From NCBI RefSeq assembly GCF_000317085.1, contig NC_019702.1, positions 1,146,394-1,210,393 on the forward strand: a DNA stretch of 64,000 bases. The letters are read 5' to 3'. The notes beneath the pieces were generated by a model. That model worked only from the letters and a program-made list of their open reading frames with translations, did no database searches and was not told the origin of the DNA. This DNA comes from Synechococcus sp. PCC 7502. GTDB taxonomy: Bacteria; Cyanobacteriota; Cyanobacteriia; Pseudanabaenales; Pseudanabaenaceae. Shown piece after piece: positions 2,578 to 32,377 of the stretch. How positions within the stretch are numbered: the first letter of the stretch is position 1; every line of letters starts with the position of its first letter. The position numbers were made by a program, and so were the translations under genes.

Positions 2578-2713
2578 CTGATAGCTGCCATAGGGTGAGT
2601 TTATAGTTCATCTTGACTTTAGCTGACACTTCACCTGAGGGACACACAAACTCCAAAAGAAATAATGATCCCAGTAGGTGCTGAACACAGCCCCCATGAG
2701 TAATACCAAATCG

Positions 2714-3280
2714 TTAAATACGAGCTACAGATAAAGCCTCTAAAATATAATCCCACCCAACAATCGAAGCAATTACCTCCTGAGTCATAACTTCTAACCT
2801 TTCCCGCATTAATGCACGCAACTGGTCAAGATCTTTTGGCAGTTTCCACCTCAACCCTAATTTGAAATGCTGCCACACTCTTTCAATGGGATTAGTCTCA
2901 GGTGCATGGGCAGGCTGAAATAGCAAAATAATATTTTTAGGAATCTTTAACCGTTTTGCTCTGTGTGCTCCTGCTTGATCCACTTGCATAACGATGATGT
3001 CACCTTGAAAATATGCGCTTACTAAGTTCAGAAATACTTGGAAGCATTCACTATTAAGGTGAGTAAATTCATAGAAAAAGCTTTCCCCTGTTGATGGTTC
3101 TACAATTCGATAGAGGTAAGTTGCCTTAAACTGCCACTGAACTTTACCTTTGGGTTTGACTCCTCTTGCTGTGATCTTCCTTCCACTAATTGTCTTTAAC
3201 CCAATTCGTGTTTCATCTTGACAAAAGAATCTCACTTTGCCATTTAGTCCGATTATATTAATGCCGAACCAGGCAATCAT
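2714..3280 (-). CDS. IS630 transposase, C-terminal DDE part (OrfB)
   Basis: This is the catalytic half of an IS630-type transposase, 188 residues. Key segments are FFCQDETRIGL (first Asp), VMQVDQAGAHRA (second Asp) and the APETNPIERVWQHFK motif (the Glu). It overlaps the end of OrfA by 23 bases in another frame, and its open frame extends upstream of the ATG towards the A-run in OrfA. A fused product by frameshifting is therefore the likely active enzyme, as known for many IS630 members. Confidence 0.9.
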   Translation of the reverse strand: MIAWFGINIIGLNGKVRFFCQDETRIGLKTISGRKITARGVKPKGKVQWQFKATYLYRIVEPSTGESFFYEFTHLNSECFQVFLNLVSAYFQGDIIVMQVDQAGAHRAKRLKIPKNIILLFQPAHAPETNPIERVWQHFKLGLRWKLPKDLDQLRALMRERLEVMTQEVIASIVGWDYILEALSVARI

Positions 3281-3782
3281 GCTTATAATACTGGCAAGGT
3301 TTTTTATATGCTTCTACTTGCTCTTCTGACTTTCCTGCGCTGACTGGACGTGTCACTTTCGGTCTGGCTTTCAGCCGATATCGGACTAGATGATGCACAG
3401 TTTTATAGTTTGATTTGATTCCTAATTGGTTCTCTAACCATTGGCAGATCTGCCCATAACTTTCAAAGCCTTCTGCTTCTTCCAGCTTTTTTATCAATGC
3501 TTTCTGCGCCCATTGTGGAATACTCTGTTTTCGCCCTGTTCTAGGTTTATGTCCTAATAGTCCTACTATTCCCCCTTTGCGATAATTCCCTAACCAATCT
3601 TGCAATGTAACTCGATGCCGTCCCAGTATTGTCGATGCTGTCTGGATTGTGCTTGCTTGTTTTGTTTTTAACAGATACAGCATCTGAATTCTTTCTTTAT
3701 CTGATGCGGTCTTTTGCACTCTCAGCATATGTTTTAGCTCTTCTTCACTTTCTTTGATCTCTAATTTGTATACTCCTGCCAT
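3258..3782 (-). CDS. IS630 transposase, N-terminal DNA-binding part (OrfA)
   Basis: The 174-residue protein has two helix-turn-helix units, with ASTIQTASTILGRHRVTLQDW around residues 42-62 and a second winged-helix-like part ending in VHHLVRYRLKARPKVTRP. This is typical of the IS630 paired-type DNA-binding region that recognises the terminal repeats. Near its end, the coding strand has a run of six A after GCATAT. To enter the OrfB frame the run must be read as five or eight A. Copy 2 has seven, so neither copy encodes the fusion directly. Confidence 0.88.
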   Translation of the reverse strand: MAGVYKLEIKESEEELKHMLRVQKTASDKERIQMLYLLKTKQASTIQTASTILGRHRVTLQDWLGNYRKGGIVGLLGHKPRTGRKQSIPQWAQKALIKKLEEAEGFESYGQICQWLENQLGIKSNYKTVHHLVRYRLKARPKVTRPVSAGKSEEQVEAYKKPCQYYKHDCLVRH

Positions 3783-21735: not shown

Positions 21736-22484
21736 TTGTCTATCCAAGATTCTAAAAATAAAACTCTTTTCAAAGCGATCGCCGCCACAGTAGGCACAAC
21801 CGAATTACCTAACACTGCAAGTCTGTCTAATCTTTTGGATAACCCATGAGCCACTCCACAAACTGGGGATTCAACACTTGACCACTGGGCAGATAAGCCT
21901 TTACCCGCTTGGGAAAGTCCCCGCCTTGAGAAGCTGTCGGTGTAGGTAACAGCCTTAATTTCCGATCTAACTTGGTTTGATCAGGACGGCGTTTTCCTGA
22001 ATAACTCATAGGCGTAGGCAACCACAAAAACCCTTTCCCGCAGATGCGGCGCACCGATTTCCGCAGCCGATAGGATCTCCACATCAAACAAATAGCCAAT
22101 TCTACTGAGTCCTCGCAAGACTTCGGTAAGTCCGCCTGTGTAGATTGCCCCCTTGACGTTTTCCCAGACCACGAACTTGGGTCTTGCCTCATTGATGACT
22201 CGGAGCATTTCAAACCAGAGAGAAGATCTCTCTCCCGTGATTCCAGTTCTGGCTCCAGCAAGGCTGAGGTCTTGGCATGGAGATCCGCCAGTGATGAGGT
22301 CATATTGATTGGGTTCGGCATGGAAGGTATGGATGTCTTGGTGAATGGGGATATTGGGGAAGTTTTTAGTAAGGACATGGCAGCAATAATCCTGAATTTC
22401 GACAAATTGGATTGTTTCTATGCCAAGGGCTTGAGCCGCCAGAGTAAAGCCGCCAATGCCAGAGAACAGATCGAGATGTTTCAT
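21732..22484 (-). pseudogene. C5-cytosine DNA methyltransferase, frameshifted
   Basis: Residues from ATG 22484 give a clear Dcm N-terminal half: DLFSGIGGFTLAAQALG, TGGSPCQDLSLAG (catalytic Cys), VVWENVKGA and HLRERVFVVAYA. This frame hits TGA at 21981. The shifted frame continues with LLPTPTASQGGDFP and LNPQFVEWLMGYPKD, then TAG at 21827. The first frame then resumes with LDRLAVLGNSVVPTVAAIAL, the conserved motif X, ending TGA at 21732. Two compensating indels near 22010 and 21840 explain this best. The gene is probably inactive unless the sequence has errors. It overlaps the HTH gene by ATGA. Confidence 0.8.
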
Positions 22485-22486
22485 AC

Positions 22487-22813
22487 TCAAAAAGCCTCCC
22501 ATTCAAACAAAGGTTGATCTGGATTTTCAACACGGGAAAGCCTAATTCCTTGCTTATCAACAATCAGCCCTAGTTTGTTAGCCTCAGAGATCGCCGACTC
22601 CCTATATCTTGGATGATGCGTAATCAACCATTGAGCCTGAAGCCTTGCCACCTCACCGCCAATAGTCCGAATTACCTCATGTTCAGGAGGAGGCTGAAAT
22701 AGCTTGTAACAATCACCATTTTCATGGGCTAAATTTCTGAGTCGATGATTTTCAGCAAGTCAATTATCTTTGGTATGCGTTCCGCATTTCCCAAAGTCAA
22801 CAACCCCGATCAT
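22487..22813 (-). pseudogene. Unrecognised small gene upstream of the methyltransferase, interrupted
   Basis: A coding-like frame of 90 codons (22487-22759) ends RLSRVENPDQPLFEWEAF and stops three bases before the methyltransferase ATG, as in a tight operon. Upstream, the same frame passes a TGA at 22760-22762 and reaches an ATG at 22813. A neighbouring frame (GNAERIPKIIDLL) could instead join by a one-base shift. Either way the gene looks broken. No family is recognised; HEVIRTIGGEVARLQAQWLI is the most distinctive stretch. Short phage-like accessory genes of this kind often precede methyltransferases. Confidence 0.45.
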
Positions 22814-22874
22814 GGATAAAATCCCTAGGCGTTTAAATCATAAATTCAAAAATTCTTGATACTATATTTTTAAC

Positions 22875-23276
22875 TCAAGCGTTCTCATGAAGCCAGTTAT
22901 CAAAGGTACTTCTTTGATCATTATATAAGATTCTTTGATACTTACTTTTATCAGATAAATAACAAAGATGTCTTATCTCCGTGTACGGATTAAAAGGATG
23001 CCTGATCCCGTCACTAATATAGGCTTTATACTTATCAACTAAATCAAATCCTTTCTCAATTATCTCTTGCTTGAATTTACTTGGGGTAAGATTTTCTTCA
23101 AACGTTAAAACTTCAGTAACAAATCCATCAACTTTATAAGGTTGGAAATTATAGTGGGGAAATTTCTCTTGAACTATGCTAAGAAATGAAAACGCATTTA
23201 GCTTGTCTGTCTCTGAGGGATTTAGAGACTTTTGCTTCTCTTCTTCTTCAGGTTTTCTTGTAGCTTCTCTAATATA
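22875..23276 (-). pseudogene. Unrecognised gene truncated at its 5' end by an insertion sequence
   Basis: About 133 residues remain. The only start in this frame is a TTG inside the terminal repeat of the adjacent IS, so the native 5' end has been displaced. Features are a charged segment (KPEEEEKQKS) and then a compact domain (FLSIVQEKFPHYNFQPYKV, IIEKGFDLVDKYKAYISDG, CYLSDKSKYQRILYNDQRS, FDNWLHENA). No known motif is seen. Across the IS, after removing one target copy, the frame continues upstream as GRIEINDFKYIREATRKP without an ATG, so the start is unresolved. Confidence 0.45.
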
Positions 23277-24322
23277 GGACTTACGCAAGAATCATAGAAA
23301 TAGAAGGATTTATGAGTTGAGATTTTAAGTAATCAGATAAAAGTCCAAACTTGATTTGGTAGATAGTCTTACCTGCTTGAAAAGCCAAACGCTTGAGGTG
23401 ATTCCACACTAGCATGGCACAAGCAATATGATTACGCTGAATTCTAGACTTACGGCATTGGCAAGCTTCAACACCAGTCAGTTGTTTGAGTTCACGATGA
23501 AATTCCTCAATCTTCCACCTTATGGAGCAAATAGCTAGTACTTCAGGGGTGTAGTCTTGAGTTAAGTCGTTGGTCACGACAAATTCTGTCCTGCTTGGAG
23601 AAACAGTGACCCAGAATAGGTTCCCCTTCTTATCTTTGGGGAATTTATTGATTTTGACCAATTTTCCCTGCAACAGTTCCTGTTCAGACCAAGTTAACTG
23701 GTCAATGCGTTTATATTTTTCCACTCCACCACTATCATCAACTAGGCGATTGGACTTGAGTGGACAGTAATAAATCTTGCCGAAGTTATCAATTTCTGCC
23801 ATCAGTCGTTGTGTGGCATACCAACTATCCATCAGCACCGTCTGAAATGGTAATTGTTTGATATTGATCAACCCTTTAAGCATATCGGACACATGATCTA
23901 ATTTACTCTTGCCATCACCATTTGGGTCATAAACCCGATAGTCTACTACCCAAAATTCTTGCCGTTTGACATTTACATACACACAGTTGACCACCCCTAT
24001 ACCTTGCACAATTCCATGTTCGTTGCCACTGTATTGTCTTTTGGCATGGCGTTTATCTAATACTGTGTCGTCAAACAGCACGTACATATACTCGGCTTCA
24101 TCTGACACAATTGTTGATTTCACATTCTGCCATAGCAATCTCGGTGTTAATCTCTGGGATGCCAAATATCGGTTGATCTTGTCATGGCTATGTCCTTCTA
24201 TATGTTCTGCTAAATTCGTGATTGTGTAGTTTATTTGACTACTTAGCAAGTACTGACAATAATCTAGGGTAGTAAACTTTTTTGACATTGCTCTCCCTCA
24301 AATCATTCTTCTGCGTAAGTCC
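23277..24322 (-). mobile_element. IS4/IS701-like insertion sequence (complete)
   Basis: This is a 1046-bp element with near-perfect terminal repeats: GGACTTACGCA at the left and TGCGTAAGTCC at the right, extending a few bases further as (A)GAAT. It is flanked by TATA on both sides (23273-23276 and 24323-24326), consistent with a 4-bp target duplication. One transposase gene fills it. It separates an antitoxin-like gene from the unrecognised gene downstream. Confidence 0.88.
23281..24288 (-). CDS. DDE transposase of the IS4/IS701 superfamily
   Basis: The 335-residue transposase has the DDE core visible as YVLFDDTVLDKRH (first Asp), TVLMDSWYATQ (second Asp) and IRWKIEEFHRELKQLTGVE (the Glu within the Y/R-E-K-like signature). 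A C-terminal tail LLVWNHLKRLAFQAGKT-like segment follows. The stop codon lies within the left terminal repeat, so the gene fills the element. The frame is intact and the element is potentially active. The exact family (IS4 or IS701) needs a database comparison. Confidence 0.88.
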   Translation of the reverse strand: MSKKFTTLDYCQYLLSSQINYTITNLAEHIEGHSHDKINRYLASQRLTPRLLWQNVKSTIVSDEAEYMYVLFDDTVLDKRHAKRQYSGNEHGIVQGIGVVNCVYVNVKRQEFWVVDYRVYDPNGDGKSKLDHVSDMLKGLINIKQLPFQTVLMDSWYATQRLMAEIDNFGKIYYCPLKSNRLVDDSGGVEKYKRIDQLTWSEQELLQGKLVKINKFPKDKKGNLFWVTVSPSRTEFVVTNDLTQDYTPEVLAICSIRWKIEEFHRELKQLTGVEACQCRKSRIQRNHIACAMLVWNHLKRLAFQAGKTIYQIKFGLLSDYLKSQLINPSISMILA

Positions 24323-24333
24323 TATATTTAAAA

Positions 24334-24579
24334 TCATTGATTTCTATCCTCCCAATCGATCTCTTCCTGTTTTCTCTGGGCAAACAGTTCGCTACTGGTC
24401 TGAACATGAGCATACTTACCACGAAGGGAACGAATAATCTCTGCTTTCTTGTCTTGAGAAGGTGCTGTTTTTTGTTGGGTACTGATAGACCTAAGCGATC
24501 GGATCACATCAAGAGCTTTCGCAAGCTCTAAGTCTGACATTGCATCAATTTCATTGATTAGTAATTCTTTGACAGTCAT
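24334..24579 (-). CDS. Antitoxin-like small protein, 81 residues
   Basis: The protein has an acidic helical N-terminus (MTVKELLINEIDAMSDLELAKALDVIRSL) and a C-terminal tail (KYAHVQTSSELFAQRKQEEIDWEDRNQ). This layout is common among small cyanobacterial antitoxins that precede PIN toxins. AGGAG lies upstream of the ATG. The insertion sequence begins 11 bases after the stop, where a partner toxin would be expected. It is therefore either an orphan antitoxin or the third gene of the PIN operon upstream. Confidence 0.6.
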   Translation of the reverse strand: MTVKELLINEIDAMSDLELAKALDVIRSLRSISTQQKTAPSQDKKAEIIRSLRGKYAHVQTSSELFAQRKQEEIDWEDRNQ

Positions 24580-24596
24580 AACCTATGTAACTCCTT

Positions 24597-24791
24597 TTAA
24601 GAATTTTCCTGACGCTTGCGGATATCAGCCAAAATATCATCCATACTCATCTGATCTAGCCATTGATGACGCTCCGCAGTATAGTCACCACTACCTTGAT
24701 CAAATAATCTCAGAAACCTGACAGCATCGACATAGCCAAGTGTATCAACCAACGCTTTAAAGCCTTTTCTTGTGAGTTCAACTGCGGTCAT
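24597..24791 (-). CDS. Antitoxin partner of the PIN toxin
   Basis: The 64-residue protein begins MTAVELTRKGFKALVDTLG, contains DAVRFLRLFDQGSGDYT and ends MSMDDILADIRKRQENS. It starts four bases after the PIN stop, with AAGGAG upstream of ATG 24791; a longer in-frame start lies within the PIN gene and is less likely. I associate this family with PIN-domain neighbours in cyanobacteria. It would neutralise the toxin and probably bind the operon promoter. The toxin-first order is the reverse of classic vapBC. Confidence 0.7.
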   Translation of the reverse strand: MTAVELTRKGFKALVDTLGYVDAVRFLRLFDQGSGDYTAERHQWLDQMSMDDILADIRKRQENS

Positions 24792-24795
24792 TATT

Positions 24796-25257
24796 TTATT
24801 CTCCTTCTTGTATTGCAATATTCATTAACCAAATGACAGGATTAGCTACGCTGACTTTAAGTGTTTTTTCATAGGCTATTGCCTTCTTCAGCAAGCGATC
24901 GTCAGTTGTCAGAAAAATATCAACATTTCCGCTTTCAGCACAAGCAATATGCAAAGCATCAAACTGTTTAAAGCCCAATTGGATTAGCTCCATAGCCCTA
25001 CTGACAATTGATTCTGTAACTAATATTCTATCTTGGGCGATCGACAAAGCCTCCATAACCTGTTCAGCGATATTGGGCTTTCGATTTTGAGCAATTTCGG
25101 ATTCAAGTGCTGTACTTCTAATCAAAACAAATTCTCCTGATACACATCGCTCCGTAAGCTCATCAATTGCTTCTGTTTCAAGTTTAATCCGTTGTTGTGA
25201 TTGGTCATCAAAAGGACGATTTAGACAGCAAACATCCATGTAAATTCGGTATTTCAT
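24796..25257 (-). CDS. PIN-domain ribonuclease toxin (VapC-like)
   Basis: PIN toxins are Mg-dependent RNases. The 153 residues show MDVCCLNRPFDD (first Asp), the ESEIAQN region, GFKQFDALHIACAE (third acid) and FLTTDDRLLKKA (C-terminal acids). The ATG at 25257 overlaps the stop of the upstream adenine methyltransferase (ATGA), with GGAGG just before it, so translation is coupled. A longer open frame to 25284 is rejected for that reason. Confidence 0.85.
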   Translation of the reverse strand: MKYRIYMDVCCLNRPFDDQSQQRIKLETEAIDELTERCVSGEFVLIRSTALESEIAQNRKPNIAEQVMEALSIAQDRILVTESIVSRAMELIQLGFKQFDALHIACAESGNVDIFLTTDDRLLKKAIAYEKTLKVSVANPVIWLMNIAIQEGE

Positions 25258-27200
25258 GGATTTACCTCCTTTGCCATCATACAAACTGCCACGCCCTGCT
25301 GAATATCAAACACATTTTCATCCTTTGTGCCATCGATCGCCGTCTCCTTCTTTTTAGAATTACCATGCAAATCCAAAATCCTTATCCAATTAAAGCTCTT
25401 CGCCAAACTCTGACGCATTCCCCGAAAAGTAGGATTATCCAAATAACCGTGATTAGTCACAAAAGACAAAATCCCTTTCCCCGTCTTATCAATTCGCCAC
25501 TGTGAAAAGCGAATAAACTTCACATAGTCATCCTGCAACCATTTTGGATTTTTCTCTCCCAAAGGCAACCCATCTACAAAATAATAATCCTTCACCAAAC
25601 TCCCAACCCACTCGCTCTTATTTTCCGAATGTCCCGAATAAGGAGGATTGCCAATCACCACCATGACAGGAATATCTAGCTTGACCCCAGCCGCTTCGTT
25701 GGATTCTTCAGCAATAAACTCCTTAAATAAACTTTCCGATTGCCGTTTAGCGTCATCAAGCGTATTCGTCAGATAAACCCCTAACCTTTGATCGCTATCA
25801 AACGCATAACCCGACTCCTCCAAAAACAAACCCAACTTCAAATGACAAATCGCATAGGGAGCCATCAACAACTCAAACCCAAATACACGGGGCAATAAAT
25901 TATCCTTCACATAGTTTGACCATGAAATATTACCAAGCTTTTGTTTAATTAGCGATCGCGCCTCACCATCATTTTTAAAACGCTCCTCAATCAACTTAAA
26001 AATCCATAACAAAAACGTCCCCGTCCCACAAGCAGGATCGAGAATCATCACCTCTGGATCGGCTAAACCTAGGGGCTTATTAAACTTCTCCTTTAGCAAA
26101 ATATCTACACAGCGCACCATGTATGACACTACAGGCTCAGGCGTATAATAAACTCCTCGCCCCTCACGCATCTTCGGCTTATACGCCGCCAAGAAATCCT
26201 CATAAAACCGAATGACAATATCTTCTCGATTCATCTTCTGCCGAAAATCCGAGAGAATTGCATCCATCTTTGCCGCTCGGAGGATACCAAACACCTCAGC
26301 AATACTCTCAACCAGCTCATCCCCCAATTCTTCGAGAGACCTTTCAGACACATCCTGAAATAGCTTTCTTAAAAAAGGGTTAGTCTCTGGCAATTGCTGC
26401 CATGCACCCTGACGGTTAAAATCGGCTTTAGGATCATGCACATGACTGAATACTCTAGCTGTAAAAAGTCCATAGGCGATCGTCTGGGCATAAATATCAG
26501 CAAAGCTATAATCCTTCTCGTTCTCAGCCTTAAGCTTCAAATTAGGCAACAACTCACGCTGAAAACTCTCTAGCAGATTATGTAAATAACCATCTACACC
26601 CTCCGCCTCATAAGCTAAAGGTAACGCCTGTTCCATCCGCCTTGTCACCTCTGCCAAAAGTTGAGCCAGTTCTTTTGCCGTGTGGGCAGCTTCATAAAAT
26701 ACCCACTCCACCAATGGTATCGATACTAAAGCTCTAGCGGCGATCGGTAATTGCCCCTGTTGCAAACGGCTCAACCGTCCTAATAATTCCTGCTTATCCC
26801 ACCCAAAACTCTCAACTTGACGCTGACGGATACCACCCTCAATCGGCAATACAAAAGTTACCCGCCCCATCTGCTCACCTTCAGGCAATAGCAAATACAT
26901 TACAGGCTGCTGCGCCGCTATTTGATTGGTGTAATGCCCATAGGTTTCTTGTTGCTGGACTTGATCAGTAAAAAAAGCTTTAATTTCACTCTTACTTAAG
27001 CGATCGCACTCAGCATAAAACCCCACTGCGATCGGGCAAGTATCCTCAGCTTCCGCACTATTAACCCCTGGACGCAAGTACCAATATTTTGAACCACTAA
27101 CATCACGCTCTTTGATTGGATACCCTAAGAGCGATCGCAATGCCTCTACCCGTTCTGCTTGAGTACCCTTAGAAATTGCTAGTAAACTGCGTAAATCCAT
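25254..27200 (-). CDS. N6-adenine DNA methyltransferase, C-terminally short
   Basis: The 648-residue protein has an N-terminal region of about 300 residues common to large N-6 methylase/ISP-like proteins. It then has the SAM site ILDPACGTGTFLLW (about 390) and the catalytic GNPPY (about 518). It stops just after DENVFDIQQGVAVCMMAKE, where relatives continue for some 300 residues with the target-recognition region. The ORF joins the PIN toxin directly by ATGA. DNA specificity may therefore be lost, or supplied in trans. No restriction subunit is recognised nearby. Confidence 0.82.
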   Translation of the reverse strand: MDLRSLLAISKGTQAERVEALRSLLGYPIKERDVSGSKYWYLRPGVNSAEAEDTCPIAVGFYAECDRLSKSEIKAFFTDQVQQQETYGHYTNQIAAQQPVMYLLLPEGEQMGRVTFVLPIEGGIRQRQVESFGWDKQELLGRLSRLQQGQLPIAARALVSIPLVEWVFYEAAHTAKELAQLLAEVTRRMEQALPLAYEAEGVDGYLHNLLESFQRELLPNLKLKAENEKDYSFADIYAQTIAYGLFTARVFSHVHDPKADFNRQGAWQQLPETNPFLRKLFQDVSERSLEELGDELVESIAEVFGILRAAKMDAILSDFRQKMNREDIVIRFYEDFLAAYKPKMREGRGVYYTPEPVVSYMVRCVDILLKEKFNKPLGLADPEVMILDPACGTGTFLLWIFKLIEERFKNDGEARSLIKQKLGNISWSNYVKDNLLPRVFGFELLMAPYAICHLKLGLFLEESGYAFDSDQRLGVYLTNTLDDAKRQSESLFKEFIAEESNEAAGVKLDIPVMVVIGNPPYSGHSENKSEWVGSLVKDYYFVDGLPLGEKNPKWLQDDYVKFIRFSQWRIDKTGKGILSFVTNHGYLDNPTFRGMRQSLAKSFNWIRILDLHGNSKKKETAIDGTKDENVFDIQQGVAVCMMAKEVNP

Positions 27201-27303: not shown

Positions 27304-29632
27304 CTACTCAATTCTTTGGAGTAAATTAATTTTATCCTCAGAGGTTTCAACCTCATTAATAAACTCGCTAAAAATCTGAGAGAGAGTTTTGTTCTCACTG
27401 ACAGCTTTTAAGATAATTCGTTCATTTCTTTGCTCAAACAAATCTATTAGCTTTCTAGCATGAATAAAATCTTCTGATCTTTTATGTAAGAATTTTTGGT
27501 TTACACCTCTAAAACTAAAAAGATAAATAAGTGCTAGTAAAGAATTTTGTTTGTACTGATAGTTTCTCTCTTGTTCATCTCTTTGAGATCTAAGAATAAG
27601 CGTTCTACTAATAAAGAAAGGCATAGACATTAGCCTCGAAATAATTGCTTTAGTATGTGCTTGATAATCATTGTATTGTCCATAATTATAATTTGAATAC
27701 CAAAGGAGTATGCGACTATAGCCCCACATATATACATCTAACAAATATGCTTGATCGTTGCCAAATTGATCGAAGAATAATTGAAAGTAAGCTAACTGTA
27801 GTCTTGGTGTAGTTGCTACTCTTGCTAAGAATCTTAAATACTCATCTTTAAGTTTTATAAAATTATTATTATCCTCAACATGATTTGAAACTTTAGTCAA
27901 GAGATTCCTATCATAAAATTTTAATAATTCGGTTTCTGGGACCTGTTGCGTAAACATATACAGCTTTCCAACAAACATTAATGCCTGCTTAAGTATTTCA
28001 ATATCAGATGAAATAAAGCTATGACTATTTAGTAAATTAATCATAAACCTTACTAATTCAATCAATTCCAACTTTTGAAAGAGACGTGTTAGACATAACT
28101 CAGAATTAGGCATGATGTTAATAAGAGCATCTGTTCCATCTCACATACTCCGATGAATTAATCTTTTAGAATCATCAATTATCTTTCGTAATTTATTATT
28201 TCTTAACCTTAAAGATTCTCTTAGATTTATTAATAGCTCTTCTAATTTACTAATATCTAAATTATAAAGTAATTCAATTTTATTCCTGGATTTATATTGA
28301 CGGCTTTCAATAATTTCAGACACAGTTAGATAGCCTTTGATGGAAACTTCACTTCTGTCTAAAAACTCAGAATCCAGCTTACGTGCTTGCTCATCTTTAA
28401 CTATTAGAATAGGTGGATTGCCTAAACTTACAAAAAAAATCTGTACATTATTACTGAAGTTAGAATCCTGTGCACTAATACTTGTGTCTGTTATCTGATA
28501 AGCTTGCTCCTTTGAATTCTTAAATATATTTTTATCATTAACCCTTATGGGTAGCTGAACAGATCGACCAGCCATACTAAATTTATCTATGATACGACTA
28601 CCTTTTTGATACTTAGCAACAAATTCTCGACTTTTTGATTATCCCTCGTAAGAAATTGGATTAACTTTAATATCCATTTCACTGGGCACATCTATCCAAT
28701 CTTCATCAGAACTACCGACTTCAAAAGAGATTTTATCTAAATATTGTCCAAAAAGAGGAAAGTTAGTTACCTTCTTCTCTTACCAAACTCGATCAAATTC
28801 AGCTTTATTTAAATTTGGCAAACAAAAGCCTAAAGAAAGAGAATTACAAAACTTAGGTAAAAAGTTATATTGGCTAATTAAAACAATCTTATAGTTTGAA
28901 TTTGTACGAGCATAATCTAATAAAGCTCCACAATTTATTGTTTCAGTTACTATCTTATCAATCTGGTCAATTTCTAATTCAGCCTTAGTATAGTAGTCCT
29001 GATTATTATGAAAAAACTTTATTAGAAAACTAATATTTCTGGAATTGTTACTTAAAATAGGCTTTACGGCTTGGAAGAAATTGCTTGACTGAGTGTTGGT
29101 TGCCAAGTATTCTTCTAAGATGGTGAAGAAATTAATCTCCTGTAAATATTTTGAGATAGAGTTTAGAGCAGTAGAAGCGATCGCTGAATTTTTATTAATT
29201 ATTTCTTGGGCTAAGTGATCGCATATTTTTTTATATACTGTCTTTGGATCGAAAGGCAGGTTTAGTCTGTCATAGGTTCCGATTTTTCAAGTATCTAGAA
29301 TTGGAATTAACTTAGATGTGCGATCGCTCTTCCTAAATTCAATGGGAATCCTTGCAGCAGGAGTAAAAGCATCTAAATCAATAAGCACTACTTGATATTT
29401 TTGTAAATCTACAGACTCAGAAATTTGGGATACATAATTCCAATAATGGTAGGCACTTGTATAAAGATACTGTTGTCTAAGTTGACGTAAGGATAAAATA
29501 CTACTATCCCTGACGATTAGTAGCTTGTTACTGCTGCTATCATTAACATCATGACCAATATAATTATTTACAGCTTTTTTGGAAGTATTGAGATCAGGAG
29601 CTAATTCTGAAGCTTTAACAGAATGGTTGATA
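27304..29632 (-). pseudogene. Large unrecognised gene with four in-frame stop codons
   Basis: One reading frame stays coding-like for about 776 codons. It is cut by TGA 29287-29289, TAA 28780-28782, TAA 28639-28641 and TGA 28141-28143, and ends at TAG 27304-27306. All stops and all coding segments share the same phase, so no indel is needed. Fragments include KLLIVRDSSILSLRQL and VVLIDLDAFTPAARIP (N-terminal), FPLFGQYLDKISFEVG (middle) and a helical C-terminal part of 269 codons. No family is recognised. The 5' end is cut by an IS cluster. The likely reading is a gene dying by point mutation. Confidence 0.65.
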
Positions 29633-29634
29633 TA

Positions 29635-30143
29635 GAGCCTGTTTCATATCTCATGAGTAGCAATTGTTTTTAGCATCAAGCGAATAAAGCAAAGATTGAG
29701 TTTAGCTGTAGCATTAACGAGAGTTCTCTCAAAGTTCTTAACTAAGATTTTGCATCTTTCAACCCAAGTATCCACCTTGTCGGCACAACTACAAACCCAG
29801 ACAGACCTTTTTCTGCCTTCTGTTGCTTTGATACCTTAGGAGAAATTTCAAACCTAATCTTAGTCATAATCTCAGGATAAACCTTCTGTAAATCAGTCGT
29901 CAATTTTTCGATATGATAACCACTATCCAGCAATATCGTAGTTAGGGTAATGTCATCTGGCTTCGATTTGAAGTAATCAATGTTAAACGTTAACATCTCA
30001 ATCAGTCCTTGGTCATCTGATACATTTGCTCTTGTTAAATAGGTAAAGAAAGGAAATCCCAGTATGTCAACGGCTAAATGTCTTTTGATCCCGTTAGTTG
30101 CTTTGTAGGAGCAGAAGCCCTTGGATTCTATACTTGCATTATA
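29635..30143 (-). mobile_element. IS5-family element, remnant with inverted orientation
   Basis: These roughly 509 bases match the 3' half of the complete IS5-type element at 31212-32101, in opposite orientation. They include its right-end repeat (GAGCCTGTTTCATATCTCATGAG) and the transposase C-terminal part (VSDDQGLIEMLTFN, SGFVVVPTRW). The remnant ends at TA 30142-30143, where the IS630 copy was inserted within it. TATA flanks its outer end (29631-29634). The transposase half is not functional alone. Confidence 0.88.
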
Positions 30144-30151
30144 CCAAATCG

Positions 30152-30718
30152 TTAAATACGAGCTACAGATAAAGCCTCTAAAATATAATCCCACCCAACA
30201 ATCGAAGCAATTACCTCCTGAGTCATAACTTCTAACCTTTCCCGCATTAATGCACGCAACTGGTCAAGATCTTTTGGCAGTTTCCACCTCAACCCTAATT
30301 TGAAATGCTGCCACACTCTTTCAATGGGATTAGTCTCAGGTGCATGGGCAGGCTGAAATAGCAAAATAATATTTTTAGGAATCTTTAACCGTTTTGCTCT
30401 GTGTGCTCCTGCTTGATCCACTTGCATAACGATGATGTCACCTTGAAAATATGTGCTTACTAAGTTCAGAAATACTTGGAAGCATTCACTATTAAGGTGA
30501 GTAAATTCATAGAAAAAGCTTTCCCCTGTTGATGGTTCTACAATTCGATAGAGGTAAGTTGCCTTAAACTGCCACTGAACTTTACCTTTGGGTTTGACTC
30601 CTCTTGCTGTGATCTTCCTTCCACTAATTGTCTTTAACCCAATTCGTGTTTCATCTTGACAAAAGAATCTCACTTTGCCATTTAGTCCGATTATATTAAT
30701 GCCGAACCATGCAATCAT
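30152..30718 (-). CDS. IS630 transposase OrfB (copy 2)
   Basis: 188 residues, differing from copy 1 by one residue (Thr for Ala before YFQGD). The DDE residues are present as in copy 1. Because the element lost one terminal repeat and the OrfA start, this gene is probably silent, but the protein could act in trans if expressed. The coding run upstream has seven A where copy 1 has six. Confidence 0.88.
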   Translation of the reverse strand: MIAWFGINIIGLNGKVRFFCQDETRIGLKTISGRKITARGVKPKGKVQWQFKATYLYRIVEPSTGESFFYEFTHLNSECFQVFLNLVSTYFQGDIIVMQVDQAGAHRAKRLKIPKNIILLFQPAHAPETNPIERVWQHFKLGLRWKLPKDLDQLRALMRERLEVMTQEVIASIVGWDYILEALSVARI

Positions 30719-30720
30719 GC

Positions 30721-31211
30721 TTATATTACTGGCAAGGTTTTTTTATATGCTTCTACTTGCTCTTCTGACTTTCCTGCACTGACTGGACGTGTCACTTTCG
30801 GTCTGGCTTTCAGCCGATATCGGACTAGATGATGCACAGTTTTATAGTTTGATTTGATTCCTAATTGGTTCTCTAACCATTGGCAGATCTGCCCATAACT
30901 TTCAAAGCCTTCTGCTTCTTCCAGCTTTTTTATCAATGCTTTCTGCGCCCATTGTGGAATACTCTGTTTTCGCCCTGTTCTAGGTTTATGTCCTAATAGT
31001 CCTACTATTCCCCCTTTGCGATAATTCCCTAACCAATCTTGCAATGTAACTCGATGCCGTCCCAGTATTGTCGATGCTGTCTGGATTGTGCTTGCTTGTT
31101 TTGTTTTTAACAGATACAGCATCTGAATTCTTTCTTTATCTGATGCGGTCTTTTGCACTCTCAGCATATGTTTTAGCTCTTCTTCACTTTCGCTGATCTC
31201 TAATTTGTATA
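30721..31211 (-). pseudogene. IS630 transposase OrfA (copy 2), 5' end lost
   Basis: The native start codon is missing. The open frame now runs into the adjacent IS5 terminal repeat, giving a chimeric N-terminus (IIDMKQALYKLEIS), which could allow a fortuitous start. The end differs from copy 1 (EAYKKTLPVI) because of the extra A in the A-run. The two HTH segments are intact. Confidence 0.8.
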
Positions 31212-31258
31212 GAGCCTGTTTCATATCTATTATGAGCAAGATGTATGATACTTAGAAA

Positions 31259-31570
31259 ATGCTAAATCCATACTCAAGTAGCCTAACAGATAAAGAATGG
31301 GAAATTATAGAACCATTGCTCCCAAAGAAAAAGCAAACTAGACCGCCAACTTGGACAAAAAGACAAATTTTAGACGGCATACTCTACCAACTCAAAAACG
31401 GTTGTAATTGGCGAGATATGCCCCGAGACTTACCACCATTCTCTACAGTGTATCGATACTACAAGGAGTGGAAAGATACAGGTACATTTACTGCGATTAT
31501 GGAAGCTTTGCATTCAACAGCCCGTGAACAGTCAAAAAAAATCAAAATGGACAACTTTAATCATCATTGA
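31259..31570 (+). CDS. IS5-family transposase, first frame
   Basis: 103 residues begin MLNPYSSSLTDKEWEIIEPLL and contain RQILDGILYQLKNGCNWRDMP and FSTVYRYYKEWKDTG. This is the DUF4096-type DNA-binding part of IS5/IS427 transposases. The frame ends shortly after a run of eight A (about 31535-31542), which is the likely frameshift point into the catalytic part. Confidence 0.88.
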   Translation: MLNPYSSSLTDKEWEIIEPLLPKKKQTRPPTWTKRQILDGILYQLKNGCNWRDMPRDLPPFSTVYRYYKEWKDTGTFTAIMEALHSTAREQSKKIKMDNFNHH

Positions 31571-31994
31571 CTCACAAGCAGTGAAAAATACTTGTAATGC
31601 AAGTATAGAATCCAAGGGCTTCTGCTCCTACAAAGCAACTAACGGGATCAAAAGACATTTAGCAGTTGACATACTGGGATTTCCTTTTTTCACGTATTTA
31701 ACAAGAGCAAATGTATCAGATGACCAAGGACTGATTGAGATGTTAACGTTTAACATTGATTACTTCAAATCGAAGCCAGATGACATTACGCTAACTACGA
31801 TATTGCTGGATAGTGGTTATCATATCGAAAAATTGACGACTGATTTACAGAAGGTTTATCCTGAGATTATGACTAAGATTAGGTTTGAAATTTCTCCTAA
31901 GGTATCAAAGCAAAAGCAGGCAGAAAAAGGTCTGTCTGGGTTTGTAGTTGTGCCGACAAGGTGGGTAATTGGGTTGAAAGATGCAAAATCTTAG
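31524..31994 (+). CDS. IS5-family transposase, second frame (catalytic)
   Basis: 156 residues carry the DDE part: IIIDSQAVKNT (first Asp), LLDSGYHIEKL (second Asp) and a C-terminal segment ending SGFVVVPTRWVIGLKD. The third acid normally lies in the following ERTLV/NATAKLN region, which continues after the stop at 31992-31994 in a different phase. The element may therefore need frameshifts or be slightly damaged. It overlaps the first frame by 47 bases. Confidence 0.82.
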   Translation: MNSQKKSKWTTLIIIDSQAVKNTCNASIESKGFCSYKATNGIKRHLAVDILGFPFFTYLTRANVSDDQGLIEMLTFNIDYFKSKPDDITLTTILLDSGYHIEKLTTDLQKVYPEIMTKIRFEISPKVSKQKQAEKGLSGFVVVPTRWVIGLKDAKS

Positions 31995-32101
31995 TTAAGA
32001 ACTTTGAGAGAACTCTCGTTAATGCTACAGCTAAACTCAATCTTTGCTTTATTCGCTTGATGCTAAAAAGAATTGCTACTCATGAGATATGAAACAGGCT
32101 C

Positions 32102-32377
32102 TATAGCCTCTTTATCAAATAACTGTTTTGCCTTCTCAGCATTATCTGTACCTTGAGCTTGAGGGAAAAATTGTTTGATTACGCATTTGGGTTTTGATGG
32201 CTTTTGCTCATCGACTGCTAGAAAAGTTCCGCCAAATCCTCCACTACCAATAATTTTACTTGCTAAATAGCGATCACCTAATAGCAATTTATGTCCGCAC
32301 TTCACGCAGAACTTTATACTAAACTGATTTTGGCTTAGACACTCAGGGTTAAGACATTGACTAATTGGGCTACTCAT
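32102..32377 (-). pseudogene. Ser/Thr protein kinase N-terminal fragment with zinc ribbon
   Basis: About 91 native codons remain. A zinc-ribbon-like start (CLNPECLS and FCVKCGHKLL) is followed by the kinase glycine loop IIGSGGFGGTFLAVD and the ATP-binding lysine region CVIKQFFPQ. The fragment stops at LFDKEA, where the IS5 element begins. No catalytic loop (HRDxKxxN) or DFG motif is present in the window. If the IS cluster is removed with a TA duplication, this frame joins the multi-stop gene in phase. Confidence 0.78.

Follow-up and report, generated by a model that had tools for sequence, protein, structure and literature searches.

A relic gene with four in-frame stops in Synechococcus sp. 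PCC 7502 is very probably an IS-truncated cnuD pseudogene of a Type III-C CoCoNuT operon

The genome of Synechococcus sp. PCC 7502 contains, on the minus strand of the 64,000-nucleotide stretch analysed here (contig NC_019702.1, positions 1,146,394 to 1,210,393; hereafter the window), a long reading phase interrupted by four in-frame stop codons. We conclude that this relic is very probably a recently inactivated, 5'-truncated cnuD pseudogene, cut by an insertion sequence (IS) and orphaned from a Type III-C CoCoNuT operon. Type III-C CoCoNuTs are predicted RNA-targeting defence systems derived from McrBC-type Type IV restriction, and were described by Bell et al. (2024, eLife 13:RP94800; PMC11090510). 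They comprise CnuB with an NxD motif and a coiled coil, the DUF2357 protein CnuC, the helicase CnuH, CnuE with its two PLD domains, and CnuD, a separate Hsp70-like protein (PMC11090510). The NxD motif of CnuB is usually followed by E or D, CnuC retains an inactivated PD-(D/E)xK fold, CnuH is a UPF1-like SF1 helicase, a distorted, elongated wHTH stands at the front of CnuE, and there is no TerY-P module (PMC11090510). The Hsp70-like protein is predicted to bind viral or aberrant RNA, which the helicase-coupled PLD nucleases would cut; Cyanobacteria are not named in the main text of that study (PMC11090510). Type III-A CoCoNuT genes of Helicobacter are split into small fragments under the standard code, for which conditional translation has been suspected (PMC11090510).

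The relic, its stops and the elements at its upstream border are as follows.

27304..29632, minus strand: very probable 5'-truncated cnuD pseudogene, Hsp70-like, of Type III-C CoCoNuT (frame, homology and fold match)
29287..29289, minus strand: internal stop 1, TGA (sequence; column without a stop in 23 intact homologues)
28780..28782, minus strand: internal stop 2, TAA (sequence; homologue alignment)
28639..28641, minus strand: internal stop 3, TAA (sequence; homologue alignment)
28141..28143, minus strand: internal stop 4, TGA, where the protein is poorly conserved (homologue alignment)
27304..27306, minus strand: terminal stop, TAG (sequence)
29633..30145, minus strand: IS5-family element (DDE_Tnp_1), right-hand part, with 98% identity to the full copy at 31211-32102; the relic borders at its 5' end on the terminal inverted repeat of this element
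30146..31210, minus strand: IS630-type element (HTH and DDE_3 transposase in two frames), abutting the cut IS5 copy
31211..32102, plus strand: full IS5-family copy (DUF4096 and DDE_Tnp_1; sequence comparison)
32103..32377, minus strand: zinc-ribbon protein-kinase-like gene, reduced to a stub by the cut at the full IS5-family copy

The original prediction, that one minus-strand phase reads through TGA, TAA, TAA and TGA to TAG, is borne out together with its stop positions, but the start that it gave, 29632, is off by one and falls in the wrong frame: the open phase runs from 29631 to 27304 and comprises 776 codons including the terminal one. Over the stretch this frame holds 5 stops and the other five 45-120; in 2000 simulated first-order Markov sequences of the same composition, the frame with the fewest stops out of three has a mean of 57 and a minimum of 38. 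These counts indicate that the phase codes, or once coded, for protein.

A database search with the frame translated through its stops retrieves uninterrupted single cyanobacterial genes with open frames of ~790-826 amino acids, which cover nearly the whole relic at 28-33% identity. Scanning a genome collection for cnuD homologues yielded 22 loci, all free of internal stops except one decayed copy (L058, below); together with genomes found by the read-through query, they provide 23 distinct stop-free homologues, ~26-33% identical to the relic. When 21 intact homologues are aligned by tblastn they cover 29559-27316 in a single frame with no frame change, as expected from the earlier claim that the phase holds no frameshift. 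Judged from these alignments, the relic is one former gene rather than several. Every one of the 33 strictly conserved residues that it covers is kept (33/33, against the 23 intact homologues), and it departs from 90%-conserved columns in 9% of them, no more often than equally divergent intact genes do. Because no strictly conserved residue has been lost, the inactivation looks recent, in agreement with the original prediction.

In a tree of the family the relic forms a separate deep lineage; its end branch of 1.36 (median 0.66) lies within the range of intact lone lineages (0.97-2.36). Synonymous sites are saturated, since the closest homologue is only 33% identical. The G+C content of the relic is 31%, and as intact copies are AT-rich too, this composition is not a product of decay. 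A profile search finds the family in 2 of 38 Pseudanabaenaceae genomes, a patchy distribution fitting a mobile defence gene. A weak match in a further genome (G010; E 7e-4, 102 residues, four stops) is absent from the profile search and was set aside as noise. No relatives of the relic were found in viral contigs, and the relic itself gives no significant match to Pfam or PADLOC.

The identity of the family comes from the surroundings and fold of its intact members. The intact cnuD homologue is the last gene of a conserved five-gene operon, in which it follows a coiled-coil McrB-type NTPase, a DUF2357/McrC-like protein, a UPF1-like SF1 helicase and a PLD nuclease. Of the 22 loci fetched, 15 show this order, and in each of the 20 loci whose contig extends that far the cnuD homologue has the PLD gene immediately upstream. 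The McrB-type protein carries a shortened NxD motif, V-G-T-M-N-E-D-E, invariant in six sequences, and matches to SMC/Rad50/JetC-type coiled coils upstream of AAA_5 supply the long coiled coil of CnuB. DUF2357 (PF09823) scores above cut-off in three CnuC homologues; a structure model of CnuC (pLDDT 77), compared with solved folds in search of the inactivated PD-(D/E)xK nuclease, gave no significant match. The CnuH homologue matches AAA_12 above cut-off and, more weakly, AAA_11 and the IGHMBP2-family helicase. CnuE homologues carry, besides PLDc_2, another PLD active-site motif close to the C-terminus, which is above cut-off in 2 of 3 proteins. In an inspection limited to the long reading frames beside the operons, no TerY-P module was seen. 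The intact cyanobacterial operons therefore resemble Type III-C CoCoNuT in their NxD McrB-type NTPase with long coiled coil, DUF2357 protein, SF1 helicase and PLD nuclease, and in encoding CnuD, Hsp70-like and helical in its C-terminal part, in a gene of its own; unlike Type III-C CnuD, the PCC 7502 relic is truncated, carries four stops and lacks partners. CnuB homologues of the intact operons also match the PADLOC candidate PDC-M26A (E 2.6e-51 and 2.7e-43), a match limited to the NTPase gene.

The cnuD homologue gave no significant match to Pfam, NCBIfam or PADLOC when an intact copy was searched, nor did a sequence comparison with solved structures turn up a relative. For the intact homologue from Pseudanabaena cinerea, an AlphaFold model (pLDDT 77, pTM 0.52) has Hsp110/Hsp70 proteins as its best solved folds (E 2.6e-9, probability 1.00). 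The matches to DnaK and Sse1 extend over ~550 columns spanning the nucleotide-binding and substrate-binding regions, but identity is ~10%, the TM-score is 0.27-0.29 of the query, there is no match at the level of sequence, and the homologue has an extra helical C-terminal third. The operon gene set, the NxD motif and the fold match together suggest that this unnamed cyanobacterial family is likely the Hsp70-like CnuD of Type III-C CoCoNuT; the product had previously been assigned to no known family.

At its upstream limit the relic has no gene start; it meets the terminal inverted repeat of an IS5-family element, which extends from 29633/29634 onwards. In the homologues the alignments start at about residue 45-78, and ~45-70 codons of the 5' end are missing. 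Beyond this border the cut IS5-family copy is interrupted by the IS630-type element, of which a second copy, 99.3% identical, lies at 2713-3772 of the window; the full IS5-family copy and the kinase-like stub then follow. The stub, an N-terminal gene part, is separated from the relic by this nested IS cluster (29633-32102). Since intact operons do not have it as their upstream neighbour, the cluster marks a rearrangement, and by sequence comparison the relic sits at its edge. The IS5-family element has 42 matches in the 3.58-Mb genome, mostly 95-100% identical and occurring with or without a common 16-base insertion, which represents a recent IS expansion. Assignment of the stub to the system as a TerY-P kinase was also considered and rejected: the stub carries its zinc ribbon at the N-terminus, whereas that of TerY-P is C-terminal, and it lies across the IS rearrangement. 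The absence of TerY-P from Type III-C systems further rules out this assignment (PMC11090510).

On its other side the relic adjoins a defence-type neighbourhood (21827-27200 of the window), with these features.

25254-27200: methylase-type restriction gene, adjoining the relic
24796-25284: PIN-domain toxin gene
23281-24288: IS transposase
21981-22502 and 21827-22405: cytosine methylase-like gene, apparently running on in an overlapping frame for its later part

The split of the cytosine methylase-like gene is possibly a frameshift. We considered the methylase-type restriction gene as another truncated gene and rejected this, its closest relatives being of about the same length with a PIN-type toxin-antitoxin pair behind.

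The remainder of the operon was not recovered. A search of the PCC 7502 genome, run without query-specific positive controls, found no PLD gene, helicase or CnuB homologue, and DUF2357 gave nothing above cut-off. With these partners not found, and with cnuD truncated and carrying four stops, the genome does not present a complete Type III-C CoCoNuT operon. A gene that is intact in relatives is here both truncated and interrupted, as in a pseudogene, and most likely the relic itself does nothing. The damage had been described as purely nonsense, a description that does not hold given the IS truncation and the partners not found. Like other IS-generated bacterial pseudogenes, the relic ends at an IS in an IS-rich genome; unlike the usual ones, it carries nonsense changes and no frameshifts in 2.3 kb.

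A plausible course of events is that an AT-rich defence operon was acquired, and that IS insertion and IS-mediated deletion then removed the promoter, cnuB-cnuC-cnuH-cnuE and the start of cnuD. The leftover would have gained nonsense changes without selection over a few per cent of neutral divergence, although the evidence does not fix the IS events before the stops. By calculation, four nonsense changes imply ~66-102 neutral substitutions, or 3-4% of sites. The fourth stop would be reached without a frameshift with a probability of 33%, 10%, 2% or 0.3% at indel:substitution ratios of 0.02, 0.05, 0.1 or 0.2, figures to be read with the fact that the case was chosen partly for looking odd. The IS copies, used as an internal mutation control, differ by 9 singleton substitutions, of which 5 are transitions and 4 transversions, and by 2 indels each confined to one copy, numbers too small to settle the indel rate. 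The absent frameshift is thus a mildly unusual feature and the sole loose end of this explanation. Transition-biased mutation had been raised as one possible cause, with the remark that a C-to-T or G-to-A change can produce each of the four stops from a sense codon. The same holds for any TAA, TAG or TGA; every stop codon is one transition from a sense codon, so the argument carries no weight. Transitions make up 15-53% of nonsense opportunities in the stretch under the models tried, and the relatives are too distant to reveal the actual changes.

Damage is also seen in other cyanobacterial copies of the operon. In a MAG of the lichen cyanobacterium Rhizonema (L058, 9290-10979) there is a second decayed copy, in which a deletion has fused the PLD gene to cnuD; within cnuD another large piece is deleted and the frame changes. 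Elsewhere cnuC or cnuE homologues are broken by frameshifts, deletions or inserts while cnuD is open (L050, 8629-9994; L055, 4524-6700; L057, 8299-9983; L056, 3623-5166 and 6860-8553; L012, 8372-11655, with a transposase insert), which suggests that cyanobacteria have lost the system repeatedly, or else that the draft assemblies contain errors.

Three other readings of the four stops were weighed against decay. A functional gene translated through its stops, by conditional or recoded translation, would be a cyanobacterial counterpart of the stop-split Helicobacter CoCoNuT genes, a published precedent for puzzling stops in the same system class (PMC11090510). The confinement of the damage to in-frame stops, with no frameshift and no strictly conserved residue lost, is what such a gene would look like. 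Yet the 5' end and the operon partners are missing, the earliest codon that could serve as an in-frame start, a GTG at 29388, lies ~80 codons into the relic, and none of 23 intact relatives carries a stop. Moreover, the damaged sister operons show frameshifts, deletions and inserts instead of conserved stops, and the four stops in PCC 7502 are of two kinds, with no common pattern in the following contexts. Readthrough, already judged the less likely course by the original prediction, is therefore very improbable. Division of the stretch among several small genes with their own starts is just as hard to credit: frames at 27304-28113 (269 amino acids), 28141-28575 (144 amino acids) and 28780-29106 (108 amino acids) could be opened with ATG or TTG, but every homologue is one continuous gene over its whole length and no relative is split at the stop points of the relic, so that the search for four separate homologous genes came out negative.

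Sequencing or assembly error, by which the real genome would hold fewer stops or none, has a very low probability. The unbroken frame and the intact strictly conserved residues would both be expected of it. Four substitution errors in 2.3 kb are nonetheless improbable for a 3-contig, 99.9% complete assembly, and indels, the common errors of long-read sequencing, are absent from the relic. The IS truncation at the 5' end would in any case remain. A truncated and decaying cnuD gene is the reading that we retain.

Taken alone, the relic is an ordinary dead gene of a kind already known. It nevertheless provides an unnamed cyanobacterial family, without a match in Pfam, NCBIfam or PADLOC, with a likely identity as CnuD, and it documents the patchy gain and IS-driven loss of Type III-C CoCoNuT in the Pseudanabaenaceae. 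A CoCoNuT gene with in-frame stops is not necessarily a recoded one, a point relevant to the puzzle posed by the Helicobacter genes.
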